The notes beneath the pieces are model-generated. The model was not told where the DNA came from. It searched no databases and saw only the letters and a list, made by a program, of their open reading frames with translations. Below are positions 166 to 5,450 of a DNA stretch of 40,650 nucleotides, piece after piece. Position 1 is the first letter of the stretch. Every line of letters starts with the position of its first letter. This DNA comes from an uncultured Actinomycetes bacterium. GTDB taxonomy: Bacteria > Actinomycetota > Thermoleophilia > Gaiellales > Gaiellaceae. Made by a program: the position numbers and the translations under genes. The DNA lies in NCBI GenBank assembly GCA_903915545.1, contig CAIWTI010000199.1, positions 1 through 40,650 on the forward strand. Direction: 5' to 3'.

Positions 166-1188
166 TTACGGGGTCGGAACGGTCGCGATCGTCTCGAGAA
201 TGCGACCCGCGATTGCGTACGGATCACCCTGCGAGTTCGGACGACGATCTTCGAGGTAGCCCTTGTAGCCGTCGTTCACGAAGCTGTGGGGCACCCGCAC
301 CGACGCGCCACGATCGGCAACGCCGTAGCTGAACTTGTCGATTGACTGTGTCTCGTGGAGACCCGTGAGGCGCAGGTGGTTGTCCGGCCCGTACACGGCG
401 ATGTGCTCTGCCTTGTACTTGTCGAACGCCGCCATCAGTGCCTCGAAGTACTCCTTGCCACCGGTTTCGCGCATAAACGTCGTCGAGAAGTTGGTGTGCA
501 TGCCGGAGCCGTTCCAGTCGACATCGACGCCGAGCGGCTTGCAGTGCCAGTTGACATCGACGCTGTAGGTCTCGCAGAGGCGCAGTAGGAGGTAGCGGGC
601 GACCCAGACCTCGTCGGCGGCACGCTTCGAACCCTTGCCGAAGATCTGGAACTCCCACTGACCCTTCGCCACTTCGGCATTGATGCCCTCGTGGTTGATG
701 CCGGCCTCGAGGCAGAGGTCGATGTGCTGCTCGACGATCTCGCGGGCGATGTTGCCGACGTTCTTGAAGCCGACGCCGGTGTAGTACTCACCCTGCGGAG
801 GCGGGAAGCCGCCTTCGCCCGGGAAGCCGAGTGGCGCGCCGTCCTGGTACAGGAAGTACTCCTGCTCAAAGCCGAACCAGGTGCCGGGATCGTCCGGGAT
901 CGTCGCGCGCGTGTTGCTCGCATGCGGTGTGCCATCGGGGTTCATGACTTCGCACATCACCAGCACGCCGTTGTCGCGGGCCGGGTCGGGGTACGACGCG
1001 ACCGGCTGCAGCAGACAGTCCGAGTTGCCGCCTGGGGCCTGGCGTGTCGAGCTGCCGTCGAAGTTCCACACGGGCAGATCTTCGAGCGCCGGGAAGGCGT
1101 CGTAGTCCGCAATCTTCGTCTTGCTGCGCAGGCCTGCAACGGGCTCATACCCGTCGAGCCAGATGTATTCGAGCTTGTACTTCGCCAT
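166..1188 (-). CDS. glnII: Glutamine synthetase type II (GSII, eukaryotic-type)
   Basis: ORF protein MAKYKLEYIWLDGYEPVAGLRSKTK...WNFDGSST...WHCKPLGVDVDWNGSGMHTNFST...RGASVRVP; start MAKYK preceded by a GGGAGGAG RBS. Confidence 0.95.
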   Translation of the reverse strand: MAKYKLEYIWLDGYEPVAGLRSKTKIADYDAFPALEDLPVWNFDGSSTRQAPGGNSDCLLQPVASYPDPARDNGVLVMCEVMNPDGTPHASNTRATIPDDPGTWFGFEQEYFLYQDGAPLGFPGEGGFPPPQGEYYTGVGFKNVGNIAREIVEQHIDLCLEAGINHEGINAEVAKGQWEFQIFGKGSKRAADEVWVARYLLLRLCETYSVDVNWHCKPLGVDVDWNGSGMHTNFSTTFMRETGGKEYFEALMAAFDKYKAEHIAVYGPDNHLRLTGLHETQSIDKFSYGVADRGASVRVPHSFVNDGYKGYLEDRRPNSQGDPYAIAGRILETIATVPTP

Positions 1189-1220
1189 TCGGTTCTCCTC
1201 CCGTCGCCAAAAAAGCAAAC

Positions 1221-1254
1221 AAAAAAGCCCGACTCCCCAGGTGGGTTGTCAGGC
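1221..1254 (-). terminator. Intrinsic terminator/attenuator in glnII leader
   Basis: Minus strand GCCTGAC-aa-CCCACCTGGGG-a-GTCGGGC followed by TTTTTT, upstream of the glnII RBS. The GCCT arm can instead pair with upstream AGGC (1264-1261). Confidence 0.75.
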
Positions 1255-1265
1255 TTCGTCGCCTC

Positions 1266-1291
1266 GGATGCTCGCTCCTAGCGAACGATCC
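1266..1291 (-). promoter_or_regulatory. glnII 5' leader hairpin 1 (GGATcGTTCGCT-AGG-AGCGAGCATCC)
   Basis: Complementary arms on minus strand directly after the predicted TSS. Confidence 0.7.
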
Positions 1292-1300
1292 TGCGGGAAG

Positions 1301-1328
1301 GGTATAGGGGGTCCGTGAGGGCCGTCAA
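1301..1328 (-). promoter_or_regulatory. Sigma70-type promoter for glnII: TTGACG-N16-TATACC
   Basis: Minus strand: -35 TTGACG (1328-1323), 16-nt spacer, -10 TATACC (1306-1301); predicted TSS near 1294. Confidence 0.7.
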
Positions 1329-2296: not shown

Positions 2297-2751
2297 TGGC
2301 CGGGCTTCCAGACCATCAGGGCGAGGATGATGATGACGAGTACGCCGCTGCCCCGCGAGAGAATGAGGTTCTTCGGGTTGCGCAGGCGAGCACTGAGTTC
2401 GGCACTTGGCTGGTCGCCTTCGCTCGCGAGGCGTTCGGCGAGCTGGCGGGTCTCCCGGTCGGCCTTTCCGCCGATGCCACCAAGTGCCATCGCGGCAATC
2501 CACAGGATGATCGCGAGCAGAACCCACGGTGCGCTGAGCCGGAACTCATGTCCGTGACCGACGAGAGCGAACCCGAGCGTGAGCGTGAGGATCGCGCCAA
2601 CACCGACGAGCGGGACAGCGATTCGGGCGATGCGAAGTAGCGCGGCAATCTCGCTGGGCTTTGTCTGTCCGCGGGCGATCACGCTGACGATGGCCGCGAG
2701 CACTCCGCCTCCGAGGAAGAGAAATGCCCCCGTCACATGCAGGGCGAGCAT
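2293..2751 (-). CDS. Small four-TM membrane protein, DUF2269-like
   Basis: MLALHVTGAFLFLGGGVLAAIVSVIARG...; alternative GTG start at 2772. The longer tracked ORF N-terminus is antisense to the kinase gene. Confidence 0.65.
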   Translation of the reverse strand: MLALHVTGAFLFLGGGVLAAIVSVIARGQTKPSEIAALLRIARIAVPLVGVGAILTLTLGFALVGHGHEFRLSAPWVLLAIILWIAAMALGGIGGKADRETRQLAERLASEGDQPSAELSARLRNPKNLILSRGSGVLVIIILALMVWKPGQ

Positions 2752-2799
2752 CCATTCGTACGCGACGATCACGAGGGCGCAGCGTACGCTTCGTCGCGG

Positions 2800-4233
2800 A
2801 TGGATGTTCGAGAACGTCACCTGCGGTTGCTGACCGACACGATCGAGGCGGTCAATTCGACCCTCGATTTGGAAGAGGTGCTGTCGCAAGTTGCGTCGAA
2901 AGTCGCGAACGCGCTGCACGCTGACGCGTGTTTTGTCTACCTCTACGACGAGCGTGCGGGCGAGCTGGTGCTTCGGGCGACCCACGGCACGAGCGTCGAC
3001 GAGATGAGCCACCGGCCGCGGATGCGGCCAGGGGAGGGCATCACGGGTTCGGCGGCTGCGCAGCGTGGGCCAGTGATGATCGCGACGCAGGCGCACCTCG
3101 ACCCTCGTTTCAAGAACTTCCCGAATCTTCCGGAGGACGAGTACGAGTCGATCCTCGCCGTGCCGATCCTTGCCCGCGGGGAACGGCTCGAGGGCGCACT
3201 CAACGTGCGGACGAAGACCGCTTACACGTTCACCGATGCCGAGATCGAGCTGCTCCTTGCGATCGCGGCGCAGGTTGCCCAGTCGATCGAACACGCGAAG
3301 CTCTACGCCGAGGCACAGCGGCGTGTCCAGGAGCTTGAGGCGCTTGCGCGGATCTCGGAGGCGGTCTCAGAGTCGCTCTACCTCGAGGAGTCACTCGAGG
3401 CGGTCGTGAAGACGACGGTGGATGCGCTCTCGGCGACGGGTGCCGCGCTCGTCCTTGAGGACGGCAAGATCGCGTGGCCTGAAGGTACGGCTGATGTGTA
3501 CGCAATCCGTTCGCCCCTGCGGTGGCGAGGCAGGACGATCGGTGAGCTTGTTGCCGACCGTGCGACGCCGTTCAACGACGACGACGAAGAGATGCTCGCC
3601 TCGATCGCACAACACGCTGCTGTCGCGCTTGAGCATGGTCGCGCGGTACTGCGCGGCGTACTCGCCCAAGAGATTCACCACCGTGTGAAGAACAACCTCC
3701 AGACGGTCGCATCGCTGCTCCGCTTGCAGGCGCGTCAGCCGGGCGTCGACGCACGCAAGGCGCTTGAGGATTCGGTCAATCGGATCCTCGCGATCGCTGC
3801 GGTTCACGAGGTGTTGACCGAGCGGCGTGACGACGATGCTGACCTGTCAGAGCTGCTCGAACGGCTTCGAGCAACGCTCGTTCAGGGCGTTGGTGCTGGT
3901 CGAGAAGTCGAAGCGAACCTCGCGACCGTCTACCTCGCCGGTCAGCGGGCAACCTCGCTGGCGCTGATCTTCTCGGAGCTGCTCGGTAACGCGATCGAGC
4001 ACGGCGGCCCTCACATCCGTGTCGATCTCACAGCCGCCGATGGTGCCGCCGAGGCACTGCTCACCGTGTCTGACGACGGACCCGGCCTGCCGGCCGAGCA
4101 GGTCGACGGCACGGGCCTCTCAATCGTGAAGGCTCTTGTCCGCGACGAGCTGCGCGGCACACTCGATTTCATTTCAGGCACGGGGCCAGGCGACGCGGGG
4201 ATGCGCGCCGAAGTTCGATTCCCCTTGGGCTAA
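2800..4233 (+). CDS. GAF-domain sensor histidine kinase, HisKA_2 type (PdtaS-like)
   Basis: Soluble; GAF segments then EIHHRVKNNLQTVASLLRLQARQ (HisKA_2) and HATPase motifs ELLGNAIEHG, DDGPGLP. Confidence 0.88.
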   Translation: MDVRERHLRLLTDTIEAVNSTLDLEEVLSQVASKVANALHADACFVYLYDERAGELVLRATHGTSVDEMSHRPRMRPGEGITGSAAAQRGPVMIATQAHLDPRFKNFPNLPEDEYESILAVPILARGERLEGALNVRTKTAYTFTDAEIELLLAIAAQVAQSIEHAKLYAEAQRRVQELEALARISEAVSESLYLEESLEAVVKTTVDALSATGAALVLEDGKIAWPEGTADVYAIRSPLRWRGRTIGELVADRATPFNDDDEEMLASIAQHAAVALEHGRAVLRGVLAQEIHHRVKNNLQTVASLLRLQARQPGVDARKALEDSVNRILAIAAVHEVLTERRDDDADLSELLERLRATLVQGVGAGREVEANLATVYLAGQRATSLALIFSELLGNAIEHGGPHIRVDLTAADGAAEALLTVSDDGPGLPAEQVDGTGLSIVKALVRDELRGTLDFISGTGPGDAGMRAEVRFPLG

Positions 4234-4593: not shown

Positions 4594-5163
4594 GTGCGCA
4601 TTCTGATTGCTGAAGACGAGACGATCATCCGGCTCGACCTGCGAGGACTTCTCGAGAAGGCGGGTTACGAGGTTGTCGGTGAGGCGCGTGACGGCGAAGA
4701 GGCTGTTGCGCTCGCTGCCGAGCTCGAACCGGATCTCGCGATCATGGATGTGAAGATGCCTCGACTCGACGGAATCGAGGCGGCGCGTCGGATCCTTGAG
4801 GCGCGGCCGATTCCGGTTGTGATGCTCACCGCGTTTGGCCAGCCCGATCTCGTCGCGCGGGCAGTCGAGGTTGGCGTGTTCGGGTACCTCGTCAAGCCGT
4901 TCCGTGAGCAGGATGTCGTCCCGGCGATCGAGGCAGCACGTGCGCGGTACGAAGAGCTCGCGGCGGTGCGCGGAGAGGTCGACACGCTCAACGAAGCGTT
5001 GATTGCGCGCAAGGCGATCGAACGAGCCAAGGGGCTGTTGATGGAGAAGGAGAAGCTCAGTGAAGGGGATGCGTTCGCGCGACTCCGTAAGGCGAGCCAG
5101 GTCTCGGGCCGTCCGCTTCGGGTGATCGCTGAGGCGGTCATCGCGACGCTGGAGGTGTCGTGA
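4594..5163 (+). CDS. Response regulator with C-terminal ANTAR RNA-binding domain (PdtaR-like)
   Basis: Receiver ILIAEDETIIRLDL..IMDVKMPRLDG..LVKPF plus ANTAR LIARKAIERAKGLLMEKEKLSEGDAFARLRKASQ; GTG start. Confidence 0.92.
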   Translation: MRILIAEDETIIRLDLRGLLEKAGYEVVGEARDGEEAVALAAELEPDLAIMDVKMPRLDGIEAARRILEARPIPVVMLTAFGQPDLVARAVEVGVFGYLVKPFREQDVVPAIEAARARYEELAAVRGEVDTLNEALIARKAIERAKGLLMEKEKLSEGDAFARLRKASQVSGRPLRVIAEAVIATLEVS

Positions 5164-5450
5164 GCACGGCTATGCCACCGCTTGAGCGCCTCGACACTGG
5201 GTCGGGGACGGGCCTTGGTGCTGCGTGGCGGGTGATCGTCTTGAACGACGATCACAACACGTTCGAGGGTGTTGCGTTTGCGCTCGCGCAGACGATTCCC
5301 GGTGTCGATTACGAGCGCGGCTTGAAGTTCGCAAACCAGATTCACGCGTCCGGTCAGGCGATCGTGTGGTCGGGCCATCAGGAGCTTGCTGAGCTGTATC
5401 ACTCGGAGCTTGAGGCAAAGGGCCTCACGATGGCTCCGCTAGAGACCTAG
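5160..5450 (+). CDS. clpS: ClpS-like Clp protease adaptor
   Basis: WRVIVLNDDHNTFEGVAFALAQTIPGVDYERGLKFANQIHASGQAIVWSG; GTGA overlap with upstream gene. Confidence 0.85.
   Translation: MSTAMPPLERLDTGSGTGLGAAWRVIVLNDDHNTFEGVAFALAQTIPGVDYERGLKFANQIHASGQAIVWSGHQELAELYHSELEAKGLTMAPLET

Follow-up and report, generated by a model that had tools for sequence, protein, structure and literature searches.

The window, as the whole stretch of 40,650 nucleotides analysed here is called, belongs to a fragmented assembly (G000) with a completeness of about 91%. On its minus strand, positions 1188 to 1328 hold a promoter, two hairpins (P1 and P2) and an intrinsic terminator upstream of glnII, and the terminator and P2 have one arm in common (Table 1). 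These elements and a ribosome binding site had been reported in a preliminary description of the sequence, and all of them were found. The leader extends for about 105 nt downstream of the promoter, which is the only evident one by its sequence and is placed upstream of the terminator. For the first hairpin, to which an AGG loop had been assigned, the hairpin itself was retained, and the loop was refined to either 5 nt (TAGGA, with a C-G closing pair) or 3 nt (AGG), a hexaloop in neither case. Between the full P1 stem and P2 there is a single unpaired nucleotide, the terminator begins within the P2 loop, and G1278 in the P1 loop is located 21 nt 5' of G4 of the P2 loop, in a register set by comparison with relatives. 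A REC-ANTAR response regulator gene lies 3.4 kb from the leader, with a GAF sensor kinase gene nearby. The 3' end of the regulator gene is overlapped by clpS (5160-5450), which suggests that the two are co-expressed.

Table 1. Features of the glnII leader and of the neighbouring candidate regulators in the window.
Feature	Position	Strand	Basis
-35 box TTGACG	1323..1328	-	sequence; same in L003 and L103, the two nearest glnII relatives
-10 box TATACC, spacer 16 nt	1301..1306	-	sequence; kept in L003 and L103
P1 hairpin GGATcGTTCGC-TAGGA-GCGAGCATCC, pentaloop variant	1266..1291	-	folding; compensatory stem changes in L003 and L103
P2 hairpin AGGC-GACGAA-GCCT, hexaloop with G1 and G4 (G4 = G1257)	1251..1264	-	folding; loops of relatives
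Intrinsic terminator; P2 3' arm contained in its 5' arm; T6 (1226-1221) comes next	1221..1256	-	folding
Ribosome binding site GGGAGGAG	1195..1202	-	sequence
glnII, type II glutamine synthetase (PF00120, PF03951), ATG at 1188	166..1188	-	Pfam domains
GAF / HisKA_2 / HATPase sensor kinase, PdtaS-like; candidate signal input	2737..4233	+	Pfam
REC-ANTAR response regulator, PdtaR-like; candidate antiterminator	4594..5163 (listed ORF from 4534)	+	Pfam, structure match

The 112-nt leader was more stable than 200 of 200 dinucleotide shuffles (z -4.6). Its lowest-energy fold combined P1 with the terminator (-41.0 kcal/mol), and forcing P2 to form gave -32.2 kcal/mol, a penalty of 8.8 kcal/mol, so that termination is the predicted default fold of the leader and the holding of P2 must be paid for. 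A leader-peptide ORF was sought, and no ATG, GTG or TTG was found between 1300 and 1225. This lack of a start codon ahead of the T run is evidence against a leader peptide, and a leader-peptide attenuator was rejected on this ground.

The glnII leaders of relatives were compared. All 21 distinct Thermoleophilia glnII leaders had P1, a P2 whose loop reads R-N-Y-G-N-N, and a terminator that overlaps P2, and a covariance model (R1), which was built on the glnII leaders of 14 relatives with the window left out, recovered the window leader with an E value of 4.7e-9 in a genome-wide search of its own genome. Because of this shared layout and this recovery, the recurrence of the arrangement is far above chance. 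At E<=0.1, R1 matches were found in 93/103 genomes of the window's Thermoleophilia family, many of which have no glnII. Outside the family, matches at E<1e-6 occurred in only three genomes of a class sample (G184, G291 and G166), and one of about 294 genomes of a phylum sample had a match at E<=1e-4, which was partial.

Among 91 distinct R1 matches, 96.3% of cells were paired, two-sided changes were seen at 14/16 pairs across P1, P2 and the terminator (7/7 pairs of the upper terminator stem covaried), and the covariation score was 0.498 compared with 0.136 in shuffled alignments (0/500) and less than 0.07 in slid controls, in an alignment that had been fitted to the structure and whose figures favour it. 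An independent MAFFT/RNAalifold analysis of 21 leaders likewise yielded P2 together with the upper part of the terminator (8/11 pairs with two-sided changes) but did not recover P1. The covariation that the preliminary description had asked for is present. Together with the conservation of the layout, it strongly supports the suggestion made there that termination is conditional, with P2 and the terminator excluding each other. In the P2 loop, position 4 was G in 91/91 distinct leaders, and position 1 was A in 58 and G in 30. The P1 loop was a hexaloop in 76/91, with G4 in 74/76 and, at position 1, G in 66 and A in 7. The spacing between the P1 and P2 loops was 21 nt in 13 of the 15 glnII leaders with a canonical P1 hexaloop; the exceptions had 20 and 22 nt (L104 and L005), and 19 nt was found in L117, in which P1 is atypical.

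To describe the genes behind the leader, 96 R1 matches were used (91 distinct sequences, a few loci occurring twice), which were picked by model score and not by gene and were checked with Pfam. The first recognised gene was glnA in 26, glnII in 24, PII-amt in 15, amt in 12, a second glutamine synthetase (GS)-like gene in 10, a response regulator in 6, a 5-FTHF-ligase/NMT1 operon in 2 and an ATP-grasp gene in 1. The first six of these categories account for 93/96 matches, a gene content that is correlated by descent. An extra ORF lies ahead of PII in L104 and L159, which represent one place, and in several genomes glnA or glnII precedes PII-amt behind a like leader. In the window's own genome, the motif was found before glnII, before PII-amt (L148) and before the 5-FTHF-ligase/NMT1 operon (L149); a further weak match (G000:C131:15745, E 0.024) resembled an ordinary terminator right after a coding region and was rejected. 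Behind the leader at L149:2031-2107 lie a gene resembling 5-FTHF cyclo-ligase and an ABC transporter of the NMT1 type, which suggests a nitrogen-containing substrate for this transporter operon. Just one further GS gene was found in this genome, and it adjoins a permease-like ORF and an ORF that by inspection resembles PuuD. As far as an assembly of about 91% completeness indicates, most glutamine may therefore be formed by glnII.

Two variants of the layout were observed. Tandem P1-P2-terminator modules, two each, occur before amt or response-regulator genes (L165:2868-3016, L176:298-446, L185:3492-3640 and L184:2394-2540). The second-GS leaders have P2 and no clear P1; in four of them (L195:5250-5329, L192:6858-6926, L206:6057-6125 and L207:9354-9428), the -10 box TAGACT apparently stands right before P2, so that the RNA would have no P1. 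The second-GS leader RNA, with P2 and the terminator, is a possible natural single-hairpin target.

Several features of the window leader are those of ANTAR-target RNAs. The stem-loops are in tandem with a short linker, P2 overlaps an intrinsic terminator as in the antitermination type, the P2 loop is a hexanucleotide with G4 (GACGAA), and ANTAR proteins are encoded in the genome (two REC-ANTAR proteins in G000). The P1 loop is not a hexanucleotide, and A is missing at loop position 1 (G1 in P2), so the leader was classed as a variant of ANTAR RNA that most likely works in the same way. The missing A1 had led the preliminary description to call the ANTAR link speculative. The A1 objection is weak, because G1 is common in this leader family and A1 makes no specific protein contact in the EutV-RNA crystal structure (PMC8934654).

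The association with ANTAR genes was quantified across the family. PF03861 was present in 96/103 family genomes, and 27 of 121 motifs lay within 10 kb of a PF03861 gene compared with at most 1.7 expected, an enrichment of about 16-fold. The expectation is a simple one, the observed count is a lower bound owing to fragmented contigs, and the loci share descent. Genomes with an ANTAR gene more often had a strong motif match (70/96 versus 2/7, Fisher p 0.025), a weak association that is confounded by MAG completeness; in a few genomes, which are incomplete MAGs (G239 and G025), the motif was present and an ANTAR gene was not found. At L230, two response-regulator genes follow the motif, and the second encodes a REC-ANTAR protein; this is the only locus for which we claim that the motif stands before an ANTAR gene. 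The response regulators behind several other motifs were considered as ANTAR proteins and rejected, since most consist of REC and a different short C-terminal stretch. In PdtaR-like receivers at L153, L165, L184 and L230, the ANTAR domain is replaced by such a stretch with the pattern G..W.PLR..R..DG. These receivers are encoded in operons that also contain amt or ANTAR genes, and they group in a supported clade of their own. They might serve the ANTAR regulator as a decoy or as a partner.

Among solved structures, the window regulator was nearest to Rv1626/PdtaR (PDB 1s8n, E 2.8e-53) and EutV. The EutV residues reported to coordinate G4 (Arg142, Lys149 and Glu160; PMC8934654) are conserved in the window protein, as is Arg168, whereas Tyr164 is replaced by Phe and the methionine plug Met172 by Gln; the numbering was matched by locating Tyr164 and Met172 on the EutV chain.

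Taken together, we consider it probable (roughly 0.83) that the leader of glnII acts as an antitermination attenuator of the ANTAR type, at which an activated REC-ANTAR dimer lets transcription into glnII, that it belongs to a wider nitrogen regulon, and that its cognate protein is most likely the PdtaR-like protein of the window. The preliminary description had regarded the element as uncharacterised and as a candidate riboswitch; the architecture, the invariant G4, the near-fixed G4-to-G4 spacing, the regulon and the ANTAR linkage point instead to an ANTAR target. The blocking of a terminator by an activated ANTAR dimer on P1 and P2 is established for EutV/NasR (PMC3369931, PMC8934654). What the present analysis shows is how the RNA is built, that it covaries, which genes it precedes and that it is linked to ANTAR genes; the binding of the protein, the direction of control, which of two paralogues acts and the signal are inferred. 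On this reading, with no activated regulator, RNA polymerase starting from the promoter at 1328/1301 would make P1, the terminator would then capture the 3' arm of P2, and transcription would end at the T run. Upon activation, the response regulator would bind as a dimer to the P1 and P2 loops via G1278 and G1257, 21 nt apart; the bound dimer would keep P2 and prevent the terminator, and RNA polymerase would continue into glnII. A like switch would control a broader nitrogen-assimilation regulon in this Thermoleophilia family, with the regulator at 4594-5163 as the most likely cognate protein and the nearby GAF kinase as the probable sensor. Against this reading, the 5-nt P1 loop and the missing A1 could mean that ANTAR binding is weak or lost, and the methionine plug of EutV is a Gln in the window protein.

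Of the alternatives, the best placed is that ANTAR control runs via the second paralogue (G000:C76) and not via the window's protein. Both REC-ANTAR proteins of the genome have the same G4-contact residues, but close relatives of the window protein adjoin motif-bearing glnII or glnA in G019, G335 and G053, and the C76 contig carries no motif, which leaves the second paralogue a modest chance. The PdtaR-like protein of the window is retained as the preferred regulator. A second alternative is that the window copy is partly decayed, its pentaloop P1 making a weak or constitutive attenuator, or that P2 alone acts. The window, L003 and L103 do have P1 pentaloops in place of the hexaloop (TAGGA, CTGGA and TAGAA), and the apparent lack of P1 in the second-GS leaders indicates that a P2-only mode may exist. 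However, the P1 stem and its bulged C are preserved in the three species, the stem through compensatory changes, and all three have a G exactly 21 nt ahead of the P2 G4. Decay of the window copy is rather unlikely on this evidence.

It is improbable that a metabolite riboswitch, responding for example to glutamine or another nitrogen-status compound, governs the terminator. The mutually exclusive fold, the terminator before a nitrogen gene and the conserved structure would suit one, but an Rfam scan of the leader at gathering and relaxed thresholds returned nothing relevant. Moreover, the conserved part amounts to two small hairpins with one nearly invariant base per loop, conservation of a junction or pocket is absent, and the motif is strongly linked to ANTAR genes. 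That the terminator only closes transcription of the upstream 104-aa ORF (1359-1673, same strand, ending about 100 nt before it) and has no regulatory role is very improbable, since the promoter sits between the two and the P1-P2-terminator module is kept before various nitrogen genes in varied contexts.

The glnII upstream regions of Verrucomicrobia and Rhizobiales (L023-L102) were also analysed. A sigma-54-type signature (TGGCAY-N6-TGC, -24/-12) was present in 61/74 of them compared with 0.13 expected in shuffles, and the P2 core was present in 0/74; in the 21 Thermoleophilia glnII leaders, the P2 core was present in 21/21 and the sigma-54-type signature in 0/21. On these counts, the Verrucomicrobia and Rhizobiales regions were rejected as homologous leaders. 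R1 gave weak matches in their loci (best E 2e-4), the stronger of which did not stand before glnII. Sigma-54 itself (PF04552) was found in 0/103 genomes of the Thermoleophilia family. A simple reading is that glnII joins whatever nitrogen control its host has. The ANTAR leader may do the job of other regulators in the nitrogen genes of this family. We give about even odds to a broader proposal, in which this family, in whose genomes sigma-54 was not found, keeps its core nitrogen regulon mainly under ANTAR antitermination. The ANTAR proteins would read a changed loop code, with G1 in P1 and with Gln for the methionine plug, and would accept even a P1 with a pentaloop, and glnII, which has sigma-54-type promoters in Verrucomicrobia, would have come under the leader.

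The antitermination principle is already known, as is the control of genes of this kind by ANTAR proteins in other bacteria. According to the main texts of the papers cited, whose supplements could list a Thermoleophilia match, the new elements are the lineage, the loop variants and, for actinobacteria, a nitrogen regulon of the terminator type. The ANTAR RNAs known from actinobacteria are scattered, and not many of them overlap a terminator; the present set is a coherent group of terminator-type ANTAR targets, backed by covariation, at the genes for glutamine synthetases, PII, ammonium transporters and response regulators of an actinobacterial class that is deep and poorly cultured. The set provides a predicted target set for PdtaR-like proteins beyond mycobacteria, and its natural loop variants (G1, pentaloop, apparently P2-only) bear on what ANTAR proteins require.

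Compared with the targets of EutV (Enterococcus faecalis eut), NasR (Klebsiella nasF) and AmiR (Pseudomonas amiE) described by Ramesh et al. 2012 (PMC3369931), the Thermoleophilia leaders are alike in the two small hairpins with loop G4, the 3' arm of P2 in an intrinsic terminator, the constrained linker and the nitrogen genes. For other bacteria, the same text reports matches upstream of PII, ammonium transporters and glutamine/glutamate synthases. The leaders differ in that the P1 loop of those targets begins with A, whereas the first base is mostly G in Thermoleophilia (66/76) and the window P1 is a pentaloop, and in an inter-loop spacing of 21 nt versus 24 nt between the eutP loops in the numbering of that paper. 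The actinobacterial ANTAR RNAs in the main text of Mehta and Ramesh 2021 (PMC8164766), which does not mention Thermoleophilia, glutamine or ammonium, come from the same phylum and have relaxed loops, with A1 and G4 only >50% conserved; many overlap the ribosome binding site, start codon or ORF, and few lie upstream of a terminator, unlike the glnII leaders. The mycobacterial PdtaS-PdtaR system resembles the window pair in having the closest solved structure to the window regulator (Rv1626) and in the GAF / HisKA_2 kinase nearby, but the window pair differs in lying near a nitrogen regulon with terminator-overlapping targets.
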